Shown piece by piece: positions 18,405-33,217 of a stretch of 51,694 nucleotides of DNA; within the stretch, counting starts at the first letter, position 1; each line of letters starts with the position of its first letter. Source of the DNA: Desulfobacteraceae bacterium (GTDB lineage: Bacteria; Desulfobacterota; Desulfobacteria; Desulfobacterales; Desulfosalsimonadaceae). The stretch is from NCBI GenBank assembly GCA_011390465.1, contig JAABSH010000024.1, forward strand, positions 1-51,694. The letters run 5' to 3'. The notes under the pieces are model-generated. The model searched no databases, was not told the origin of the DNA, and saw only the letters and a list, made by a program, of their open reading frames with translations. A program made the translations under genes and the position numbers.

Positions 18405-21400
18405 TTATTGGTCGGCAATGTGCCTTAATATGTGTACCGCCTCCGGCATGCCAATAGCGCTGTCTCCGTTGACATCAGCGGCTAAGTTCAGGGGATGACT
18501 GCCTTCTAAGCCGATGCAGATCTGCAATGCCAAAACGGCATCTTCAAGGTTAACCGTCTGGTCCCCGTTAATATCGCCTGTTTCGTCAATTGGCCCGGAC
18601 TGAAATGGATCGAACACAAATGTAATCCTTTCAGATGCCAGCATTTTATTATACGGCCAATGCGTGTCGTATGTCCGTATAAACCACTCATAGGTTTCCC
18701 CCAGCTTCAAGGCCCGTAAATCCCAAAAGTGCAAATCTATATGATTCCCGGTTGTACTGATATTTACATATTCTTTTACATCTGTTGGATCGTCCCCGGC
18801 CAAATCGCGAATCCGCAAATTATAAAGCTGGCCTTCTGCTGGCCTGTCCCAATCAAAGATCATGCCGCCATCAGGCAGGATTTCGTGTGTCATTGAATCA
18901 GCATCCACCCCCAGGATCTCTGCGGTATCATCGTAATCCTCGGCGGCGGTCAAAACCGTGCCATCCCCGAAGACCACCTGAAGCTGATAATTACCCGATG
19001 GATAAGCGGAAGTGTCACAAACATGAAACCATCCCTTGTCCCCTTGCTGCGTCTCTGTAGACAGATTGAACCCATCATCGGCCAGATCAAACTGATAGGA
19101 AAAACCATCAGGCCCTTGCACGGTGGCTTCATTGACATTTGGGACAGACCCTGGACGGACACTGAAACCGCAGGCAAATCCGTCCGGCCATCTGTCTGCG
19201 ATGAACCATCTGATTCGATTGTCCAAATTATTCGGGGTATAAGCGATATTGTCGTTGGCAGCAGATGTGCGTACTGCCGTATATTCAGGAAATTGCGGAT
19301 CATCAAAAGTTTTGACCTGCCATTCGTACGACGCCCCTATTGCCAGGCATGCCAGCTCATTTGCGTCAACGGTGAGTCGATCGATATCCCATGTTCGCTG
19401 AGATTCATAAAGCCGTTTCCCATCGGCATCATATATCTGTACCTGATACCCCAGGCCGGATCGGGGGCTGGTCCAGGAAAATTCAATGCTGCCATCATCT
19501 GTTAAATCTGCCGCCATCGTTGACGGATCGACTGACGGGATACTGTTAAATTGGCGATCCAGGGTATAGGTTCTTTCCAAATCGTCTTTGAATCTCAACG
19601 ACAACGTATATGTGCCATCATTTGCCGGGGTGTCAAATGGCTTCCACCAGTAATTAAACCCGGCACAATCGCTCATATCATCGTATCGATCATTTATTAG
19701 ATCGAACGTATAGGAAAACCCGGAAGGCCCGGTCACAGTCGCGGATTGAAGTTGATCCTCAAATACAGGCGGCAGATCAAAACCAACACTGAATTGTCCT
19801 TCATACTTGGCCACTTCCCACCAATTTAGCCTTCGGGGGGCCTCGCGTAATTGAAAATCCGCCTGGGTCTGTGCGTCCGTATCGATGCCGTCCGCCAAAG
19901 CGCACTCATAATCGCCGATCATCCTGTCATAACTCCACCAATACGACATAAAGGGCTCATGGCGGCAGTCACCGCAAGCCTGCACATAAACGATCCCGTC
20001 TTCTGTGTCGATATCCCGAAACGCATATGCCCCATCGGAATCAGTCGTTTGGCTGTCTATATGATCGCTCCAGCAGGGCGAATCATAAAGCTGGACCACA
20101 ATGTTTTCCAGCTGATGTCCGTCCTGATCGGTGACAGTGCCTGAAATGCTTGGCTGTGCGTATTCCTGTGCGGTGACATCCATTCGCATTATACTATTGG
20201 CCTGCTCTGTATTCCAGCTGGCACCCGAATCTGCCGAATACGCCGAATGATCAAGAATTGTCCAGGAACCGCTCTCTGAAGTCGAATCGGTGAAAGATAA
20301 ATTATAATCCCCATTGCCGCTGCTGATCTGGACCGTCACCCAGTAGTCCGTGTTTGGCGAAAGAACAATATCGGCTGACGTCCGATACGCATTCATCCCC
20401 ACTGTCGGACGGCCGGGACCCGCCAGTACCCCATCTGTTATTTGGGCGCCAGGCCGGCCGCCGTTATCCCTGCAAATACGGACAACGAAAGTGCCTGCAT
20501 CATTATTTACCGCTTCAACAGCCACGGTCACGCTCTCCAGGATATACGTATCACTGCCCGTCGTAAATCCCTGAGCCTGATAACGGGCGTCGCTGACCGT
20601 AAAAGACCTGTCAGCAGACTGGTTCAAATTTGAAACCCCGAACTGGGAGGTGTCCAGTTGAAAATCGACCCCTGAAACGGTTTGCCCGTCAGTTATGGAT
20701 ACCTCTGCCCCTTTTTCGCAATCCGGGGTCACCCTGTCCAGATCCCACCATAGATCCTGGCCCTCCATATGGGCCGCATAGGCGCGAAGATAGTAGCCGC
20801 CGGGCGGCAAAATAAGGGAATACTGCCCTATGGAATCGGTTTTCTGTGAAAAACGATACGGTTCATAACGGCATTGATCATCGGTTGCAAGGATCCATAC
20901 GTCTCTCAAAGGCCGATCCGATGTGCCTGTCGCCGTACCGGTAATCTTTCCGGCATTCTCAATCATCTGTATATGGGTCAGATTGTCATCGCTGACCGAT
21001 ACATCCGGCATTTCGGCACCTACCGCATGCGTATAACACCGAAGATAACGATTGACCCAGTCGCCCATGTCGGCAATTGGCACCTTCCATTCAATGAAAT
21101 CTGAACCGACGCCGACATATTCACTGCCCGGATATGTGCCGATGACCGCTCCACTGCCCCGCTCGTAAACACCTGCTCCCCATTCACTTCCATCGGGCTC
21201 ATAGGCAGCCACAGCGTATCTATCCCCCCATGTGTCCGGGGATTGGGGAGACTGGCTGGCCTGGAATACGTAAAGAGTTTCGGGGGTTTCGAGGGGGGCG
21301 CCGTCCGCCAAGCGGATCATGATATATAAATATCCTTCATCCCGGGCGAGATATAATCGGTCAATATCCGTGCCATCGAAATCGACCGCTTCATCCCCTA

Positions 21401-24275
21401 TTGCATCGGTATATACCGGCGACAGTGAATCCCAGTCCGACGCCTCCCCGTCAATTGAAATCGATTTCCTTGGGATTGTGGTAAAGCCGCAACTTTCGGG
21501 AGTTAAAATAAAATCATATCCAGTCAGCACATCACCCGTATCAGCAGGGATCCGTGCGGCCAGTTCACAATCCGTGGTTCCATCTGCAGCATCCCAGTAT
21601 TCCGATACCCAACCGGAACCTTCGGCAGACAGGTAAATATCTCCAGATGGAACCCGCACTGAATAGTTGCCGTTGATATCTGTGGTACAATAAGAAGCGA
21701 CGTCTATGCGCTCACCGCAGGCGGCTTCATATACGTTTATTTCGGCATTGCCAATTCCATGGCCCTGAGGCGACTTGACCTGCCCGGATAACAGTGCGCC
21801 GGCATCAAGGGTAAAATCGATACCAGTCAAATGATCGTTTCCGCTAAGGTCAATCCGGTCAGCTTCAGCCCATCTGTAACAGGCATCATAGTATTCCGGG
21901 ACATAGCCACTGATTCCGGCCGCAAGCAGATACTGGCCACTGGGGAGTCCGCAGATGTCATAAGACCCGTCCGGGCGCAAAGAAAATCTTTTTTCACCTC
22001 CCCCTTGATCCGTTCGAAACGCAATAACTGCGCAGTTGATCTCCCATTTGTCGTGCACCCCAAAGACGCGGCTGCCGCCATACCATTCAACCACCACTTG
22101 CTCATCAATCATAATTTCGGATGCATCATCCGAATCCGTGCTGAACCACCATAGGCCTGGCTGATCAACGTAGAACCAACATTCGTATTTGGACACGAAA
22201 TGATCATTTGCGCCATGAATGTTTTCTTCCTGATACACTTTGTCCACCACGCTTTGCCCGTACCAGCCCTCTGTGGTTTGCGCATCCTGCTCCACACAGG
22301 ATCGCATGTCGCTATGTGTTTGCGGGTGCCGGTTCCAGGTATTGCGTTTCGTGGTCAATAAAATCCCTGGTTCTCCATTTGTTTCTTCAGTTTGAAGATT
22401 CAAATGGGTGGTGGAAAATACTTCCCACTTATCGCCTCCGGGAAACTTAAAAGCGGCTCTGGCGGTATTGCTGTATTCGTCTGTATTTTCATAGCGGTAC
22501 GTAAATCGATGCCATCCCTTTTCTAATGAAATGCTGCCGATATTGCCGGGCGGCAGGGGCTGGCCGGTAGCGGCATCCGTGACGGTTCCGGAGATACATC
22601 CGCCCTGATCGATTGAAAAATCAATGCCGCCGGATTCGCTTCCGGATTGGACCGCTACCTTTTGCGCCGTTTCACACTCCCATTCCGATAAAGTTTCAAC
22701 ACCGCCCCACCATTGATTGATATGAGATGGATCAGCGGCCGTGGCCTCCGCATATACATAATATTCCCCGGGCGGCAGGCTGACGGCAAAGTCGCCGTTG
22801 CTGTCGGTAGGGACGACCGCCGCATCCGGTGCTTCCCAACACTTCTCCGAAAACAATCGGACTTCTGCATTTTCAATAGGATCTCCGTCTGATGTAGACA
22901 CATTGCCGCAAACAACCCCTCCCCTGTAGACAAAAGGCACCCCTGCTGATGAATGATTCTTTCCATCAAGCGCAAAAACAGATAAATGGTAAATCTTCCC
23001 TTCAATTAATGCTTCACCCGTCCCGTCCTGATTATAGGTGCAAGAAGTTTCAGATGTTTCCCAAAACCAGATGGAATGGTCATCATCTTCGATCCAGATA
23101 TGATACCGACTGGCATTGGGAACCGGTTCCCAGTCGATTGGGAAGCTTGGATTGGTTATCATACCCCCATTGGTCGGGGTGATGATTTCAGGTAAATCCA
23201 GAACCGCCGATAAATTGTCCTGGACGGTTACCTTATTTCCGGATTGGTCCAAAACATGAAATGTGTATGCCCCGAAAAGCGGTGCCTGATTAAAATCGTA
23301 CAATGCATTTCCATATACCCCATCTGCTGATCCATTATCGTCATGATGACCATCATCAAAAAGAAAGTATGTATCCCCCTGAGGATCTTCGACCCAAACG
23401 CTGCGGATATCTTCCACCCCCTGAGGATCGGCGGCTAAAACGCTAAAATGAAGCCCCCAGTCTTCACCTTGATTCCAGTCATTGTGTATTGATCCGACCC
23501 CGCCGTCTCGAAGGAGGGCCACCGGCGCTTCGGCATCCGAATTATAAATAAAAGCATTAGAGGTATGGTGCCAGCTTGAATTACCGAATTCATCTGAAGC
23601 CCCTACCCCCCATCGGTAGACCGTGCCTTCGGTTAAAGCGTCTCCGGTGCCGTCATCATTGTAAGCAACGCTGGTACCTAAAATACCATGTTTCGACCAC
23701 ACTTCACTGTCGTCTGCATCCTTAACAACAGATAGAGAATAATTGCTGGCCTCAGCAACCGGTTCCCAGGACAGTTCAGCGGAATCCCCATCGATAAATT
23801 CATAATTCGAAGGCGAGGGATTTCTGGGATAATCCAAAATTTGCTCAACCGTATCGGTAGCGGTGGCAATATGCCCGTCTGAATCTGTAATGATAAATTC
23901 ATATTCCCCAATAGCAGGCGGATCTGAAAATTGATTTTCCCAGTCACACCAGCTAAAAATGCCATCTCCCGCTTCACCATCGCAGTGATTACCGTCATCA
24001 TAGAGGGGATAGGTAGTTTCTCCAGGAGAGCTGACTTCAACACTCGTAATCGTTGCTGCCCCCTGTGAATCATCAACCGCAACATAAAGAAGCAAACCAT
24101 ATTGATCGCCATTTTCATCTCCCCAATGACTGGAGTTGGCAAAAGGCCCATCCGTTACCATAGAAGCCCCGGATTGTTGAGAGATCGCTAAAAATGGATG
24201 CACAAGACCGGCCATGAAAAAAATAAAGAAAATGTTACAGACGAGGTACAACTGGTATTTTTTGTACGTTATCAT
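18405..24275 (-). CDS. Large secreted multidomain protein with carboxypeptidase-regulatory-like, PA14-like and dockerin-like modules
   Basis: 1,956 residues; ATG preceded by AAGGAGAA. A hydrophobic signal sequence occupies about residues 8-31. Approximate layout: Fn3-like and beta domains to 450; a carboxypeptidase-regulatory-like repeat (PIENAEVRLFSEKC, SNGDFAVSLPPGEYYVYAEA) 452-550; PA14-like segment 626-742 (WFYVDQPGLWWFSTDSDDAS); another regulatory-like repeat 815-925; a DOMON/CBM9-like domain 935-1105 (SIDGEASDWDSLSPVYTDAI); two further regulatory-like repeats with a choice-of-anchor-R-like domain between them (1215-1368); Fn3-like repeats; and a C-terminal dockerin-like pair (DINGDQTVNLEDAVLALQ, ADVNGDSAIGMPEAVHIL). 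No catalytic domain is recognised, so binding or scaffolding is more likely than catalysis. It heads the minus-strand secretome block. Confidence 0.87.
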   Translation of the reverse strand: MITYKKYQLYLVCNIFFIFFMAGLVHPFLAISQQSGASMVTDGPFANSSHWGDENGDQYGLLLYVAVDDSQGAATITSVEVSSPGETTYPLYDDGNHCDGEAGDGIFSWCDWENQFSDPPAIGEYEFIITDSDGHIATATDTVEQILDYPRNPSPSNYEFIDGDSAELSWEPVAEASNYSLSVVKDADDSEVWSKHGILGTSVAYNDDGTGDALTEGTVYRWGVGASDEFGNSSWHHTSNAFIYNSDAEAPVALLRDGGVGSIHNDWNQGEDWGLHFSVLAADPQGVEDIRSVWVEDPQGDTYFLFDDGHHDDNGSADGVYGNALYDFNQAPLFGAYTFHVLDQSGNKVTVQDNLSAVLDLPEIITPTNGGMITNPSFPIDWEPVPNASRYHIWIEDDDHSIWFWETSETSCTYNQDGTGEALIEGKIYHLSVFALDGKNHSSAGVPFVYRGGVVCGNVSTSDGDPIENAEVRLFSEKCWEAPDAAVVPTDSNGDFAVSLPPGEYYVYAEATAADPSHINQWWGGVETLSEWECETAQKVAVQSGSESGGIDFSIDQGGCISGTVTDAATGQPLPPGNIGSISLEKGWHRFTYRYENTDEYSNTARAAFKFPGGDKWEVFSTTHLNLQTEETNGEPGILLTTKRNTWNRHPQTHSDMRSCVEQDAQTTEGWYGQSVVDKVYQEENIHGANDHFVSKYECWFYVDQPGLWWFSTDSDDASEIMIDEQVVVEWYGGSRVFGVHDKWEINCAVIAFRTDQGGGEKRFSLRPDGSYDICGLPSGQYLLAAGISGYVPEYYDACYRWAEADRIDLSGNDHLTGIDFTLDAGALLSGQVKSPQGHGIGNAEINVYEAACGERIDVASYCTTDINGNYSVRVPSGDIYLSAEGSGWVSEYWDAADGTTDCELAARIPADTGDVLTGYDFILTPESCGFTTIPRKSISIDGEASDWDSLSPVYTDAIGDEAVDFDGTDIDRLYLARDEGYLYIMIRLADGAPLETPETLYVFQASQSPQSPDTWGDRYAVAAYEPDGSEWGAGVYERGSGAVIGTYPGSEYVGVGSDFIEWKVPIADMGDWVNRYLRCYTHAVGAEMPDVSVSDDNLTHIQMIENAGKITGTATGTSDRPLRDVWILATDDQCRYEPYRFSQKTDSIGQYSLILPPGGYYLRAYAAHMEGQDLWWDLDRVTPDCEKGAEVSITDGQTVSGVDFQLDTSQFGVSNLNQSADRSFTVSDARYQAQGFTTGSDTYILESVTVAVEAVNNDAGTFVVRICRDNGGRPGAQITDGVLAGPGRPTVGMNAYRTSADIVLSPNTDYWVTVQISSGNGDYNLSFTDSTSESGSWTILDHSAYSADSGASWNTEQANSIMRMDVTAQEYAQPSISGTVTDQDGHQLENIVVQLYDSPCWSDHIDSQTTDSDGAYAFRDIDTEDGIVYVQACGDCRHEPFMSYWWSYDRMIGDYECALADGIDTDAQTQADFQLREAPRRLNWWEVAKYEGQFSVGFDLPPVFEDQLQSATVTGPSGFSYTFDLINDRYDDMSDCAGFNYWWKPFDTPANDGTYTLSLRFKDDLERTYTLDRQFNSIPSVDPSTMAADLTDDGSIEFSWTSPRSGLGYQVQIYDADGKRLYESQRTWDIDRLTVDANELACLAIGASYEWQVKTFDDPQFPEYTAVRTSAANDNIAYTPNNLDNRIRWFIADRWPDGFACGFSVRPGSVPNVNEATVQGPDGFSYQFDLADDGFNLSTETQQGDKGWFHVCDTSAYPSGNYQLQVVFGDGTVLTAAEDYDDTAEILGVDADSMTHEILPDGGMIFDWDRPAEGQLYNLRIRDLAGDDPTDVKEYVNISTTGNHIDLHFWDLRALKLGETYEWFIRTYDTHWPYNKMLASERITFVFDPFQSGPIDETGDINGDQTVNLEDAVLALQICIGLEGSHPLNLAADVNGDSAIGMPEAVHILRHIADQ

Positions 24276-27638: not shown

Positions 27639-29606
27639 CTACTTTTCCGCCATGATCTGGTGCACCTTTGCCGCCAGCGCATTGATGGAAAAAGGTTTCT
27701 GAAGGAACTGAATCCCATGATCCAGCACGTTGTGGTGGGCAATAACATCGGACGTATAGCCGGATACGAAAAGGCATTTCAGACCGGGGTTGATCCGGCG
27801 AATTTTTTCCGCAAGCTCCCGGCCGTTCATCTCCGGCATGACCACATCCGTGATCAACAGCTTTATTTCATCATTGCGTGCGGCAACCTGGCGAAGGGCC
27901 TCCCCCGGTGTGGCCGCCGCCGCCACATTGTATCCCAGCCTTTCAAGGATTTCCCGGCCCACATCCAGAATGACAGCTTCATCTTCCACCAACAGCACGG
28001 TCTCGCCCCTGCCCCGGGGGGGATTATCTGTTTTCGAAGCTCCGGTTCCGGGAGTCTTTTCCGCGTCACCGGAAAACCGGGGCAGATAAATCTCCATGGT
28101 GGCGCCGTTGCCCGGTTCCGTGCGCACGTTCACAAAGCCCTCGTTCTGCCGGACGATGCCGTACACCGTTGCCAGGCCCAGCCCGCTGCCCCCGCGCGCC
28201 TGCCTGGTGGTATAAAACGGTTCAAAAATATAGGCGACCATATCCTGGTCCATGCCGCATCCGTCATCACTGACCGCCAGCAGGACGTATTCTCCGGGAT
28301 GACAATTTGGATGGGCCGCGCACCAGGCATCGTCAAAGACAGCATTCCGGGCTTCAATGGCGATCCGGCCCGCAGCGGAAATCGCATCCCGGGCATTGAC
28401 ACACAGATTGACCAGCACCTGATCGATCTGGGAGGGATCCATTTTCACGGGCCACAGACCGGCTTCGGGCGTCCAGTCAAGAGCAATATTTTCACCGATC
28501 AGCCGCCGCAGCATACCAAGCATATTCCCCACATTCTTGTTTAAATCCAGCACCGCGGGCGCCACCGTCTGTTTCCGGGCAAATGCCAGAAGCTGCCGAA
28601 CAAGGTCCGCGCTACGAAGCGCGGATTCCTTAATGACTTTAAGGCCCGCATAGATGGAGTCCGAAGGGTAACAATCCCGCATGGCCAATTCCGCCTGACC
28701 GAGAATGGCGGACAGCATGTTATTGAAATCATGGGCCACGCCCCCGGCCAGCCGCCCGATGGATTCCATCTTCCGGGCCTGATAGAGTTGCGCCTGGAGC
28801 ATTTCTTTTTCCGCTGCGGTCTGTTTGTGCTTGGTCACATCAATTCCCAGACCGATCATGTATTGGTTGCCTTCCAGAGTTACCTTCCGGCCAGTAAAAA
28901 AATACGGGATCTCGCAGCCGTCTTTTCTCAGCAGCGGCACTTCGGCAAAGGACTCCCCTTCGGTAAATACCATCTCCATGCGGGACATGATATAAGGCTT
29001 GTGGGCTTCTGTAAAAAATTCAAGGACATCGATGCCCTTTAACTCCTCCGGGGGGTACGCGGTGTCCTGTTCCAGCCGTTTGTTCCAGCGCACCAGCCGG
29101 TTGGTGTCATCATACATATAAAAAATGCCAGGCAGGGAGTTGATGATGTCTTCCGTAAACACCATTTCCCGGCGCACCGCCTTTTCCGACTGCCGCAGGG
29201 CCGCTTCTGCCTGCTTTCGTTCCGTGATATCGATGGTAATGCCCAGAATATGGCTGTCCGGCAGCATCCGGAACCGATTTTCAACGAAAATAAAGGAGCC
29301 GTCCCGGCGGCGCAGGCGGCGCTCCCGCTTCAAGACACCTCCCCGGCGCAATTCTTCCAAGGGTATGGCTTCTATGGCCAGATCATCGGGGTGGACCAGA
29401 TCCGCCATGGTCATCCCGCGAAACTCCGTGTTGGAATACCCCATAAGCGCGATGCCCTGCGCATTCACGGCAATCAGGGAGCCGTTTAAATCGGCAATGA
29501 ACATGGGTTCGGGGGATTTTTCAAACAACGCCCGAAAAAATTCCATTGAATCCGGCAGGTTTCCGGAGGTTTCCGATGGGTGCGAAGTTGTCGAATCTGA
29601 CATCAA
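27639..29606 (-). CDS. Hybrid sensor histidine kinase (PAS-PAS-HisKA-HATPase-REC)
   Basis: The 655-residue cytoplasmic sensor has no transmembrane helix. Two PAS domains lie at about residues 23-130 (EPMFIADLNGSLIAVNAQGI, ending ITIDITERK) and 150-262 (ending IGLGIDVTKHK). The phosphoacceptor is His292 in GGVAHDFNNML. The ATPase domain shows NLCVNARDA, DDGCGM and GGSGLGLATVYGIV. A C-terminal receiver spans about 537-655 with phosphoacceptor Asp587 in LITDVVMPEMNG and KPFS near the end. Autophosphorylation followed by transfer to its own receiver is expected. The output partner and signal are unknown. It is monocistronic, with divergent and convergent neighbours. Confidence 0.92.
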   Translation of the reverse strand: MMSDSTTSHPSETSGNLPDSMEFFRALFEKSPEPMFIADLNGSLIAVNAQGIALMGYSNTEFRGMTMADLVHPDDLAIEAIPLEELRRGGVLKRERRLRRRDGSFIFVENRFRMLPDSHILGITIDITERKQAEAALRQSEKAVRREMVFTEDIINSLPGIFYMYDDTNRLVRWNKRLEQDTAYPPEELKGIDVLEFFTEAHKPYIMSRMEMVFTEGESFAEVPLLRKDGCEIPYFFTGRKVTLEGNQYMIGLGIDVTKHKQTAAEKEMLQAQLYQARKMESIGRLAGGVAHDFNNMLSAILGQAELAMRDCYPSDSIYAGLKVIKESALRSADLVRQLLAFARKQTVAPAVLDLNKNVGNMLGMLRRLIGENIALDWTPEAGLWPVKMDPSQIDQVLVNLCVNARDAISAAGRIAIEARNAVFDDAWCAAHPNCHPGEYVLLAVSDDGCGMDQDMVAYIFEPFYTTRQARGGSGLGLATVYGIVRQNEGFVNVRTEPGNGATMEIYLPRFSGDAEKTPGTGASKTDNPPRGRGETVLLVEDEAVILDVGREILERLGYNVAAAATPGEALRQVAARNDEIKLLITDVVMPEMNGRELAEKIRRINPGLKCLFVSGYTSDVIAHHNVLDHGIQFLQKPFSINALAAKVHQIMAEK

Positions 29607-29753
29607 GAGCTCTCTTGTCTGTGTGGGAATGGCATTTCACGGGCATTCAAAAAAAATACCCGCCAGAGGAAACCAATCATTTGAAAAATATCACAAAATC
29701 CGGCAGATTGATATTTATTTTTCTGATAATCTTTTCTCAAAAAGGAACCGATC

Positions 29754-30176
29754 ATGAACATCCAATTTCTGGAACGGGGTTTTTTTCAGCGGGTTTTCGG
29801 CATTCCCGCCACACCCAAACCCCAAGCCCCGGACGGCTGGACCTATGCGGACGGAAAACTCACCATTGACCTGAAAAAAGCAAAAGAACTGAAAAAACCC
29901 GGCGGCGCGCTGCGATTTGAAGGGGGCAACCTTCCGGAACGGGTGCTGGTGGTGTTTGGAAAGGATAAAAAATACCGGGCCTACCAGAACCGGTGCACCC
30001 ATATCGGCCACCGCCGACTGGACCCGGTGCCGGGCACCGGCACGGTGCAGTGCTGCAGCATCAGCAAATCCACCTATGATGCGGACGGCAACAACATCTA
30101 CGGTCCGGCACCCGGGCCGGTTGCCACTTACCCGGTCGAACTGAAAGGCAATCAGCTGACGCTCACCCTGTCCTGA
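29754..30176 (+). CDS. Rieske-fold protein lacking one His ligand
   Basis: The 140-residue protein has Rieske-type landmarks: box I CTHIGH, a spacer RRLDPVPGTGTVQ, and a tail with GPAPGPVATYPVE like the GPA--PL of Rieske ferredoxins. In box II, however, the expected C-x-x-H-G-S is CCSISKS, with Ser in place of the second His ligand. A normal 2Cys-2His cluster therefore cannot form, unless Ser or another residue substitutes. No frameshift explains it, as the flanking residues are in register. No signal peptide is seen, so it is probably cytoplasmic. A Shine-Dalgarno AAAAAGGAA precedes the ATG. Its 3' end overlaps that of the convergent helicase gene by 25 bases. Confidence 0.7.
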   Translation: MNIQFLERGFFQRVFGIPATPKPQAPDGWTYADGKLTIDLKKAKELKKPGGALRFEGGNLPERVLVVFGKDKKYRAYQNRCTHIGHRRLDPVPGTGTVQCCSISKSTYDADGNNIYGPAPGPVATYPVELKGNQLTLTLS

Positions 30177-33100
30177 TCCGGCAGGGAGATAAGATCAATC
30201 AATTCCTCACGGGAAAAGGTCTTCAGGGTACCGGCGTCGTCTTCCGTGATGACATCGGCCATGAGTTTTCTTTTGCGTTCAATAATGGTGGAAATTTTTT
30301 CTTCAAGGGTCCCTTCGGTGACCAGTTTGAACACCTGAACGCCCCGGGTCTGGCCGATGCGGTGGACCCGGTCCGTGGCCTGGTCTTCTTTTGCCGCGTT
30401 CCACCACCGGTCGTAATGGATCACCACGGACCCGCCGATGAGATCAATGCCGCTGCCCCCGGCTTTCAGGCTGCCCACAAAAACCCGGCAATTGTCGTCT
30501 TCATTGAACCGGTCAATCTCCTGCCGCCGGTTCCGGGTGCTGCCGGTAATGCCGGCAGCACCAATGCCGTTTTCCGCCAGGTACTGATTAATGATGTTGA
30601 TCATTTTCACAAACTGAGAAAACACCACGACCTTTTGACCGTTTTCCAGGCAGGCGGTGAGCAGTTCCGTAAAAAGCTCCCACTTGCCGGAATCCAGGGT
30701 GCCGGTGACCGGATCAACCCCGTCTTTGGAAACAGATGCCGGATGATTGCAGATCTGTTTTAAAAGGGTGAGCAGGGAAAAAATATGAATGTAGGGAATG
30801 GCTTCATCTTCATGTTCCAGGGCGCGCAGCAGACGCGTCCGGCGGGCATCTATCGCCTCCCGATACAGCCGGACCTGGGTTTCCGTAAGCCGGCAGAACC
30901 GGATGTCTTCAATTTTTTCCGGCAGCTCGGAGAGCACTTTTTCCTTGGTCCGGCGCAGGGTAAAGGGCCGGACCAGCTGTTTTAATTCCCCCCGCCGGTT
31001 GACGCCTTCGGATTCATAGCGCCGGGCAAAAAATCCATCAGTTCCCAGATATCCCGGAACCGAGAGATCCATCAGGGATTTTAAATCCTTTAACCGATTT
31101 TCAACCGGGGTGCCGGTGACCGCCACCTTCATTTTTGCCGGCACAACAGTCGCGGCCTGGTAGCTTTTGGTTTCCGGGTTTTTAATATACTGGGCCTCGT
31201 CAAAGGCCGCCAGGCTGAATTTCATCTTTGACAGCGGATGAAGATCATTGGTCAATACCCCGTAGGAGGTGATCACCACCCGGCCGGGCCGCTGCTTAGC
31301 GGTTAAATGCCGGTCCGGGCCGTGATAGACAACCGGCTCCAGGGCCGGAGCATATTCCAGTATTTTCCGGTGCCAGTGGGACAGCACCGTGGTGGGACAG
31401 ACCACCAGAAACGGCGCCGTTTCCTTTTTCACGGTTTTCAGCCAGACCATGACTCCCATGATCTGATGGGTTTTGCCCAGCCCCATGTCATCGCACAGCA
31501 GGCCACCCAGGTGGTTTTCATATAAAAACATCAGCCATTCCAAGCCTTTTTGCTGATAATCGCGCAGCACACTGGAAAATCCAGGCAGCGCGGCCACCCG
31601 TTCCGGCGGCCGCATTTCCAGAAATCCGGCCAGGCCAGGCCAGGAATCGGACTGGGAACCAGCCGGCTCCCGGTCGCATTCCTGGGCTTCGCTGTTATGG
31701 TTTTTCGTATTCTGGAGGCTATTTTTTATTTGAAGCGGCTTGCCAAACCCGGCCTGAAGCCGCAGCAGACCGGCCCGGGACATCCGAATCCGGCCGTCCG
31801 GACCCGCCAGCTGCTCTGCCACGGCGGTATCGGTTCCCATAAGCACTGTATCCAGATCCACGGCCCGGGTATCCACCCATCCGCCGGGAACCGATACATA
31901 GCGGTTTCCGGATACCTTTGCCTTGTAAATCTCGGCAAGAGACACGGTGGCGTTTTCACCGAACCCGTAATCAACCGACAGCCAGCACCAATCGCGGTCT
32001 TCAGCGTCCGGAGAAATGATCATGCGGCTGGGTTGCGTGAAAATAGCCAGTTTCCGGACCGTTTCATCAATAATATTGGGCGGCGCAAAAAATTCTTCGA
32101 TATTGTCCAGAATCCGGGGAATGCGCTCGGGCCGGAGCCGCTTGCGGTATTGGCCGGAAAAGGATTTCCACAGCCTGTCCGGCTTTCGCCAGGTGGCGAT
32201 CACATGATGGGCCGGCACATACACCCCGTCTGAATACCAGAAATGTTTCAGCTTGCGCCGTTCCACTGTGTATGTGCCGCCGTCCGGCAGATGAACGAGC
32301 AGGAAAAGGGTGGCAGTTAAGGTATTGTCATCTTCTGCAATCACCTTGACAATGGATTCCAGAGCCTTGGGGGCGAGGGTCACCGGGCTTTTCCAAAAAG
32401 GATGGGGCTGAAGATGCCGGACAGCGGACATGACCTTTTCCCGGGGCACAAACAGCTCAAAAACCGGGCCGTTGCCGGTGCGGCAGATGACCCTGAACCC
32501 GCCATCTTTTTCAATCCGAGCGTCCAGTTCAAACGCCTCTTCCGCCGCCAGATAATGGCAGTGACGGGCCAGCTGGTACCAGAAACCGGATTCCAGGGCC
32601 TGGCGGCGGCTTTTGAGATTTTTATCATTTAAAACGGTTTCAGAAAGGGTTCGGGTTCGGCCGGCCAGCATATCAAGCACACGGCCCCTGTGAAACGGAC
32701 GGTTGTCCGGGGAGATGAGATTTGTATGTTCCAGAAACAGGGCATTGACGTCACTATCCGAATCATCGCCCGCCAGCGTGCCGGCATCATAGGCCAGCAG
32801 CTTTTCATCATTGCTGAACACCGCTAACATCCCGGGGGCGTCCGGTCCTTTCACTGCCGCCGGACAGCTCAGGGAGCCCGAATCCTTCGGCCAGAACCCG
32901 TTTACCATCTCCGCCAGCCGGTACCAGGAAGAATTGCGAAATGCCGCATCAAACTGAATCTGTTTCGCGTCCTGATTGACCACGGCCAAAACACCGGACA
33001 GGATATTTTTGTGGGGACAGTCGCTTTTCTTTTGATAGGCCCGGCAGTTGCAGGAAAGAGACGTATAATTGGATGCCTTGTCCACCACCAGAATGGCCAG

Positions 33101-33217
33101 CCCCGGATCCGGATCCGAGGACTCCGGCACCAGCGCCATGCTGTTTCGATGACATTCAATGCGCTGGCGGGGCAGATCTTCAGGCAGTAATTTGTAAATA
33201 TCGATATGATCCATCAT
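30152..33217 (-). CDS. SWIM zinc-finger SNF2-family DEAD/DEAH-box helicase
   Basis: The 1,021-residue protein begins with a SWIM zinc finger near residues 53-82 (SCNCRAYQKKSDCPHKN, the CxC...CxH pattern), followed by a long middle region. The SNF2 ATPase core occupies about the last 470 residues: Walker A DDMGLGKT with Lys582, DEAQYIKN near 673 as the Walker B box, VTGTPVENRL (motif III), VVFSQFVKMI, and GGSGIDLIGGS with DRVHRIGQ (motifs V and VI). Bacterial members of this family are ATP-driven double-stranded DNA translocases or remodelers linked to RNA polymerase recycling or defence. The exact role is unknown, and no defence genes flank it. The neighbouring vapBC pair is divergent. Confidence 0.9.
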   Translation of the reverse strand: MMDHIDIYKLLPEDLPRQRIECHRNSMALVPESSDPDPGLAILVVDKASNYTSLSCNCRAYQKKSDCPHKNILSGVLAVVNQDAKQIQFDAAFRNSSWYRLAEMVNGFWPKDSGSLSCPAAVKGPDAPGMLAVFSNDEKLLAYDAGTLAGDDSDSDVNALFLEHTNLISPDNRPFHRGRVLDMLAGRTRTLSETVLNDKNLKSRRQALESGFWYQLARHCHYLAAEEAFELDARIEKDGGFRVICRTGNGPVFELFVPREKVMSAVRHLQPHPFWKSPVTLAPKALESIVKVIAEDDNTLTATLFLLVHLPDGGTYTVERRKLKHFWYSDGVYVPAHHVIATWRKPDRLWKSFSGQYRKRLRPERIPRILDNIEEFFAPPNIIDETVRKLAIFTQPSRMIISPDAEDRDWCWLSVDYGFGENATVSLAEIYKAKVSGNRYVSVPGGWVDTRAVDLDTVLMGTDTAVAEQLAGPDGRIRMSRAGLLRLQAGFGKPLQIKNSLQNTKNHNSEAQECDREPAGSQSDSWPGLAGFLEMRPPERVAALPGFSSVLRDYQQKGLEWLMFLYENHLGGLLCDDMGLGKTHQIMGVMVWLKTVKKETAPFLVVCPTTVLSHWHRKILEYAPALEPVVYHGPDRHLTAKQRPGRVVITSYGVLTNDLHPLSKMKFSLAAFDEAQYIKNPETKSYQAATVVPAKMKVAVTGTPVENRLKDLKSLMDLSVPGYLGTDGFFARRYESEGVNRRGELKQLVRPFTLRRTKEKVLSELPEKIEDIRFCRLTETQVRLYREAIDARRTRLLRALEHEDEAIPYIHIFSLLTLLKQICNHPASVSKDGVDPVTGTLDSGKWELFTELLTACLENGQKVVVFSQFVKMINIINQYLAENGIGAAGITGSTRNRRQEIDRFNEDDNCRVFVGSLKAGGSGIDLIGGSVVIHYDRWWNAAKEDQATDRVHRIGQTRGVQVFKLVTEGTLEEKISTIIERKRKLMADVITEDDAGTLKTFSREELIDLISLPDQDRVSVS

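Follow-up and report, generated by a model that had tools for sequence, protein, structure and literature searches.

The 51,694-nucleotide stretch of DNA analysed here (the window) carries at 29754..30176, on the plus strand, a gene for a Rieske-fold protein without the second histidine of the cluster site. The same histidine was absent from all 79 aligned members of the family, which share an invariant pair of adjacent cysteines in box II. With close to even confidence, we propose from these sequence patterns that the protein carries electrons and that three cysteines and one histidine would hold its metal, most likely as a [2Fe-2S] cluster.

The reading frame runs from ATG to TGA, encodes 140 amino acids and is preceded by an AAGGAA stretch at 29742-29747. 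The Pfam Rieske family PF00355 matched residues 42-127 (E = 4.3e-08, 33.4 bits against a cut-off of 20.3), and PF00355 was found only once, in this gene, in the source genome, whose assembly is listed as 100% complete. The curated models for bc1/b6f Rieske subunits did not reach their cut-offs (TIGR01416, 19.3 bits against 97.4; NF045928, 21.5 against 250), and all NCBIfam models touching the protein scored far below their own cut-offs. Box I, CTHIGH (residues 81-86; 29994..30011, plus strand), presents C81-T-H83, followed further on by GPA (residues 117-119) and YPV (residues 126-128). Box II, CCSISKS (residues 100-106; 30051..30071, plus strand), forms the segment C100-C101-S-I-S104-K-S106-T-Y108 and contains no histidine; in the whole protein, the only cysteines are C81, C100, and C101, and the only histidines are H83 and H86. 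The box II C-x-x-H that defines canonical 2Cys-2His Rieske proteins is missing from the encoded protein. The window gene evolves under purifying selection. Comparison with two same-genus relatives gave dN/dS of 0.150/0.834 and 0.153/1.05, or about 0.15-0.18, and ratios of ~0.09-0.18 were obtained among pairs with usable dS, several dS values being near or above 1.

The fold was evaluated using an AlphaFold2 model built from the 79-sequence alignment (mean pLDDT 86.6, pTM 0.82). The best structural matches in Foldseek and VIA-align were Rieske ferredoxins and b6f Rieske domains, headed by 8hn2_A (Z 12.3, rmsd 2.3, 101 residues aligned). NirD structures also matched the model (4aiv, Z 9.8; 3c0d, Z 9.1). 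By sequence and predicted fold, the window protein is assigned to the Rieske superfamily, and the non-Rieske fold that the earlier note had named as a ground against its reading did not appear. The VIA-align rows cover residues 32-140, so that the first 31 residues lie outside the matches. This outlying part includes a family-specific motif, FFQRVFGIPAT (residues 10-20; 29781..29813, plus strand), in which G16 and T20 are invariant. The earlier description of a Rieske-like protein with box I and the GPA...YPV tail intact and with a box II lacking histidine was confirmed by the reading frame, the PF00355 match, the model and all 79 family sequences.

Conservation was assessed in these 79 aligned sequences, consisting of the window protein and 78 relatives with a median pairwise identity of 48%, all of which match PF00355 at E<=0.01. 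Four sequences that have the CC motif and lack His at position 104 were left out of the set: the near-copies L041, L052, and L054, and L079, whose frame is broken. Also excluded were duplicate entries of the same genes under different locus numbers; L013, L060/L128, and L084, which are truncated (CC present, no His at 104); L080, whose frame is lost before box II; and L081, which is cut at a contig end. For 52 of the 79 rows the search had itself required the box I pattern C-[TAS]-H, and 27 rows were free of it, while box II was never part of any search pattern. Thirteen columns were invariant: G16, T20, W29, N79, C81, H83, R87, D90, C100, C101, S102, G112, and G117. C81 and H83 were also invariant in the 27 rows chosen without the box I pattern.

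The position of the lost histidine was variable. Ser104 of the window protein (30063..30065, plus strand) aligns with the second histidine of ordinary Rieske proteins, and this column holds Gly in 29 sequences, Ser in 21, Asn in 19, Met in five, Phe in four, and Leu in one; His was found in none of the 79. At the next position, 105, His occurs in 4/79 and Lys in 50/79. Position 103 holds V, I, L, or M, and position 108 F or Y in 79/79. Residue 106, at the position of the serine that hydrogen-bonds a cluster sulfide in Rieske proteins, is Ser in 78/79 and Thr in one, and is Ala in a related Sulfurospirillum protein. The alignment indicates that loss of the second histidine is common to the whole family and that Ser at 104 is not fixed. 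The statement in the earlier note that a serine had replaced the histidine therefore holds for the window protein and does not extend to the family, while homologues with a normal box II, which that note had associated with a single point mutation, were not seen among the 78 aligned relatives (0/78). Several other residues were considered as ligands. Ser104 as a fixed new ligand was ruled out by Gly in 29/79 and Phe or Leu in 5/79; His is present at position 86 in 32/79 and is hence not a common replacement. C18 and C28 were also ruled out as family ligands, as they occur in 45/79 and 59/79, respectively, and neither is present in the window protein; their irregular occurrence indicates that cysteines are not conserved indiscriminately.

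Family members were widespread among related genomes. Matches were obtained in 15 of 40 related genomes, 14 being family members and one an ordinary Rieske protein. Using alignment searches, strong matches (E<=1e-24) were found in 64/291 genomes of a same-order sample, and matches at E<=1e-30 in 12/297 genomes of a phylum sample; weaker matches in both samples, where inspected, were mostly ordinary Rieske proteins. A first scan of named genomes with a single protein as the query returned 87 pattern matches and no relatives. The alignment-based scan of named genomes yielded 76 loci, 69 of which score >100 bits with the family profile. These loci belong to Desulfobacterota, with fewer in MAGs named Pirellulales, Krumholzibacteriota, Spirochaetia, Glassbacteria, Methanosarcinales, or Methanophagales, and no family member was found in the viral contigs searched. 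One copy lies on an archaeal contig (L038:220-6416) that also bears F420 reductase and DUF373 genes. These archaeal-type genes argue against simple misbinning and suggest transfer into a methane-cycling archaeon. Individual copies also depart from the common form. A close relative (L004:1309-1926) differs from most members in having an in-frame N-terminal stretch with the twin-arginine-like motif SRRIFIK, and a second copy in Desulfuromusa kysingii (L084:7992-8219) is 5'-truncated, with box I and the CC box II intact and other sequence in place of the upstream part.

Outside the family proper, four relatives (L148, L149, L158, and L085) carry Tat-like (twin-arginine-type) signals and keep C-T-H, with one box II cysteine, no histidine, and no counterpart of Cys101; a serine stands two residues after the single cysteine. 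The L085 relative (L085:6716-8357) has a Tat-like lipoprotein signal and lies behind TetR and flavodoxin genes. Another Tat-signal relative (L167:1168-1818, reverse strand frame) has the box II CSSGHGG, which is C-x3-H, not C-x2-H. In a tree of 105 rows and 113 columns, a branch supported at 98/93 placed the family and the His-less relatives on one side and 20 of 21 ordinary rows on the opposite side. The odd ordinary row, an oxygenase subunit (L088b), fell on the family side, where long branches connect it to L167. The branch that sets the family alone apart was weakly supported (44/62). A single loss of the second histidine is likely on this alignment and tree, and the simplest reading would be that the histidine was lost before Cys101 was gained.

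The register of box II was further evaluated, since either cysteine of the pair could correspond to the ordinary ligand. Profile comparison with 18 ordinary Rieske sequences placed C100 on the ordinary cysteine, C101 as an insertion, and S104 on the histidine. HMMER alignments to four solved Rieske chains were divided, two agreeing with the C100 register and two putting C101 on the ordinary cysteine. Because the single box II cysteine of the near relatives L148, L149, and L158 aligns with C100 without a gap, and the histidine of L167 falls at position 104, it appears more likely that C100 is the ordinary ligand and C101 the addition. Whichever register holds, the histidine is missing.

The window gene stands alone, with no flavoprotein gene beside it. 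Its upstream neighbour, identified by reading frame and domain match, is a divergent gene for a PAS sensor histidine kinase with a receiver domain (27639..29606, minus strand). On the other side lies a convergent SNF2-type helicase gene (30152..33217, minus strand), a neighbour and not a partner; its 3' end and that of the Rieske gene share 25 bases (30152-30176). A promoter and terminator scan of 29550-30300 found none. Elsewhere in the window, 18405-24275 (minus strand) holds a 1956-residue open reading frame that looks secreted by eye. No conserved operon was found across 70 loci (69 and the window): with a simple ORF caller, able to pick shadow ORFs and with the focal gene forced, the family seen most often within three genes of the focal gene belonged to a general regulator type and occurred in 8/70, and no Pfam family matched more than four of the 79 same-strand adjacent ORFs scanned.

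Flavin partners are hinted at in a few loci. On the Sulfurospirillum plasmid pSulSP, the gene order is TetR, FMN_red-type flavoprotein, Rieske-like protein, PNPOx-type protein, and small protein, and corrinoid genes adjoin. A tblastn search with the Sulfurospirillum flavoprotein against the 76 named loci and the window gave matches only in L020 and L029 and, weakly, in L067. FMN_red-type genes are present in L020 and, 5 kb off, in L029, and a flavodoxin gene is directly upstream in L020, as it also is before the sister gene in L085. The L029 locus of D. kysingii (L029:2498-8441) presents genes for a type II haloacid dehalogenase, a DsbA-type protein, and TetR, then the family gene, with nitroreductase and FMN_red-type genes nearby. 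The settings in D. kysingii and Sulfurospirillum hint at a link to halogenated compounds.

Four readings of the site were ranked, namely a 3Cys-1His [2Fe-2S] cluster, a cluster with an open site, a mononuclear metal site, and no metal, in this order. In the first, the window protein would be a small soluble Rieske-fold redox protein with a rebuilt metal site. Cys81 and His83 from box I and Cys100 from box II would serve as ligands, and the family-specific Cys101 most likely replaces the lost second histidine to complete the 3Cys-1His cluster. In Rieske proteins, the high potential and proton coupling are set by the two histidines. The rebuilt cluster would act as a low-potential carrier of single electrons in the anaerobe cytoplasm. 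Its partner may be a flavoprotein, a possibility hinted at by gene order in Sulfurospirillum and at two further loci. We infer metal binding, the [2Fe-2S] identity, Cys101 as a ligand, and the electron-carrier role alike. A rebuilt site appears most likely because a fold that has given up metal for good would not be expected to retain C-x-H together with both box II cysteines, and NirD retains none of them. Of the two possibilities raised in the earlier note, a lost cluster or a new ligand set with the cysteine pair available, the second would be the better fit to the invariant C81, H83, C100, and C101. Against the 3Cys-1His cluster, Cys101 adjoins Cys100, and their side chains would point opposite ways in an extended strand. 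In addition, no gene partner recurs, the window gene has no flavoprotein neighbour, S106 is replaced by Ala in the Sulfurospirillum protein, the S. multivorans protein went undetected in the proteome (PMC4585668), and only 27 rows show the invariance of C81 and H83 independently of the search pattern. Cys101 cannot be essential throughout the wider clade, because the four single-cysteine relatives without it are likewise without the histidine.

The same four relatives bear on an unlikely alternative, in which C81, H83, and C100 alone hold the [2Fe-2S] cluster and leave its fourth position to water, to Ser102, Ser104, or Asn104, or to substrate. Cys101 would then be a neighbouring thiol that takes part in chemistry or passes on persulfide, and the cluster would be labile or catalytic, not a plain carrier. 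Loss of the histidine without Cys101 in these relatives, with C-x-H, one box II cysteine, and a serine two residues on, agrees with an open site, as does the invariance of S102 (79/79); however, position 104 offers no common side chain, and the invariant Cys101 would need a separate reason. A mononuclear Fe or Zn site with C81, H83, C100, and C101 as ligands could also account for three invariant cysteines and one invariant histidine. We consider it quite unlikely, since the serine thought to hydrogen-bond a cluster sulfide is kept in 78/79, and the two-finger spacing of the engineered rubredoxin-like site in ARF, reportedly C-x2-C twice, is absent here. Such a mononuclear site is reported for an ARF triple mutant in a review (PMC2946596). 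A degenerate, metal-free Rieske fold, acting as a thiol/disulfide redox protein or a binding partner in the manner of NirD, appears improbable. NirD is an example of the fold persisting without ligands, and the window protein lacks one of the essential ordinary ligands, but box I C-x-H is lost in NirD, whereas C81 and H83 are invariant in this family, including the 27 pattern-free rows. Finally, a sequencing error, a point mutation, or a pseudogene has hardly any probability: the truncated D. kysingii copy and the out-of-frame L079 and L080 are found elsewhere in the family, and nothing of the kind was seen for the window gene, whose dN/dS is well below 1. Point mutation and sequencing error were ruled out by a histidine loss common to 79/79.

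Among the closest described systems is the SMUL_1574 group of organohalide-respiring Sulfurospirillum, whose genes lie in regions for organohalide respiration. The plasmid protein of Sulfurospirillum sp. SP is 54% identical to the window protein over 99% of its length, with CTHMG and CCSLNKATF as its boxes. For S. multivorans, Table A5 of PMC7755780 lists SMUL_1574 and its orthologues as Rieske homologues with CxH(x)CxxH changed to CxH(x)CxxN, and this single case of CxxH to CxxN is thus already known. SMUL_1574 is one of four genes on the transcript SMUL_1573-1576, together with genes for a flavoprotein, an FMN-binding protein, and a membrane protein, and is up with tetrachloroethene, with a log2 change of 8.7 (PMC7755780). 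In the proteome, SMUL_1574 was not detected, and the flavin-type SMUL_1573 and SMUL_1575, raised with tetrachloroethene, were suggested to keep the corrinoid cobalt reduced (PMC4585668). The pSulSP gene and SMUL_1574 are probably orthologues, as judged from common gene order and not from sequence. The SMUL_1574 group shares homology and the CxxH loss with the window protein and has flavoprotein and FMN-binding neighbours, whereas the window gene has a histidine kinase and a helicase. In the literature searched, no natural Rieske protein without the second histidine was found besides the Sulfurospirillum case, and the family-wide loss and invariant cysteine pair were not found described; the 'unusual Rieske' of PMC4683180 denotes a Rieske/cytochrome b complex that has additional subunits.

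Compared with ordinary Rieske ferredoxins and b6f/bc1 subunits (PF00355), the family is alike in fold, box I, the general shape of box II, GPA, and the strands that follow, and differs in the missing second histidine, one additional residue and one additional cysteine in box II, and its own N-terminal 30 residues. The nitrite reductase small subunit NirD also departs from the ordinary ligand set within a Rieske fold. In E. coli K-12 NirD, which served as the control and where ligand places were judged by eye as the family profile did not align NirD, C-x-H and C-x-x-H are both absent and all four ligands are lost, whereas the window family keeps three and adds a cysteine. No mitoNEET/IscR-type family was matched when the window protein and the aligned members were compared with Pfam, and the folds of mitoNEET and IscR differ from the Rieske fold. 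The ligand count of their 3Cys-1His [2Fe-2S] clusters (PMC9737848) is that proposed for the window protein.

A further comparison is with engineered S. solfataricus ARF, in which, according to the review, the H64C substitution gave a 3Cys-1His [2Fe-2S] cluster and H44C failed (PMC2946596). Both ARF H64C and the window protein keep the box I cysteine and histidine and the box II cysteine, have lost the box II histidine, and thereby have three cysteines and one histidine. The new cysteine stands at the place of the histidine in ARF H64C; in the window family it stands beside the box II cysteine, and the histidine place is taken by Gly, Ser, Asn, or others. The cluster of ARF H64C was measured, whereas the window family is known here from sequence and predicted fold. 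Somewhat short of even confidence, we suggest that the family is a widespread natural counterpart of ARF H64C, binding [2Fe-2S] by one histidine and three cysteines, of which two are adjacent, that its lineage lost the second histidine and later gained the cysteine, and that in anaerobes, organohalide respirers among them, it works with flavoproteins to carry electrons at low potential. If so, the strongly induced, unexplained gene of organohalide respiration would gain a family-wide setting, and evolution would have given up the very histidine whose replacement by cysteine engineering found tolerable, gaining a cysteine beside it, which would show how the fold can be retuned.
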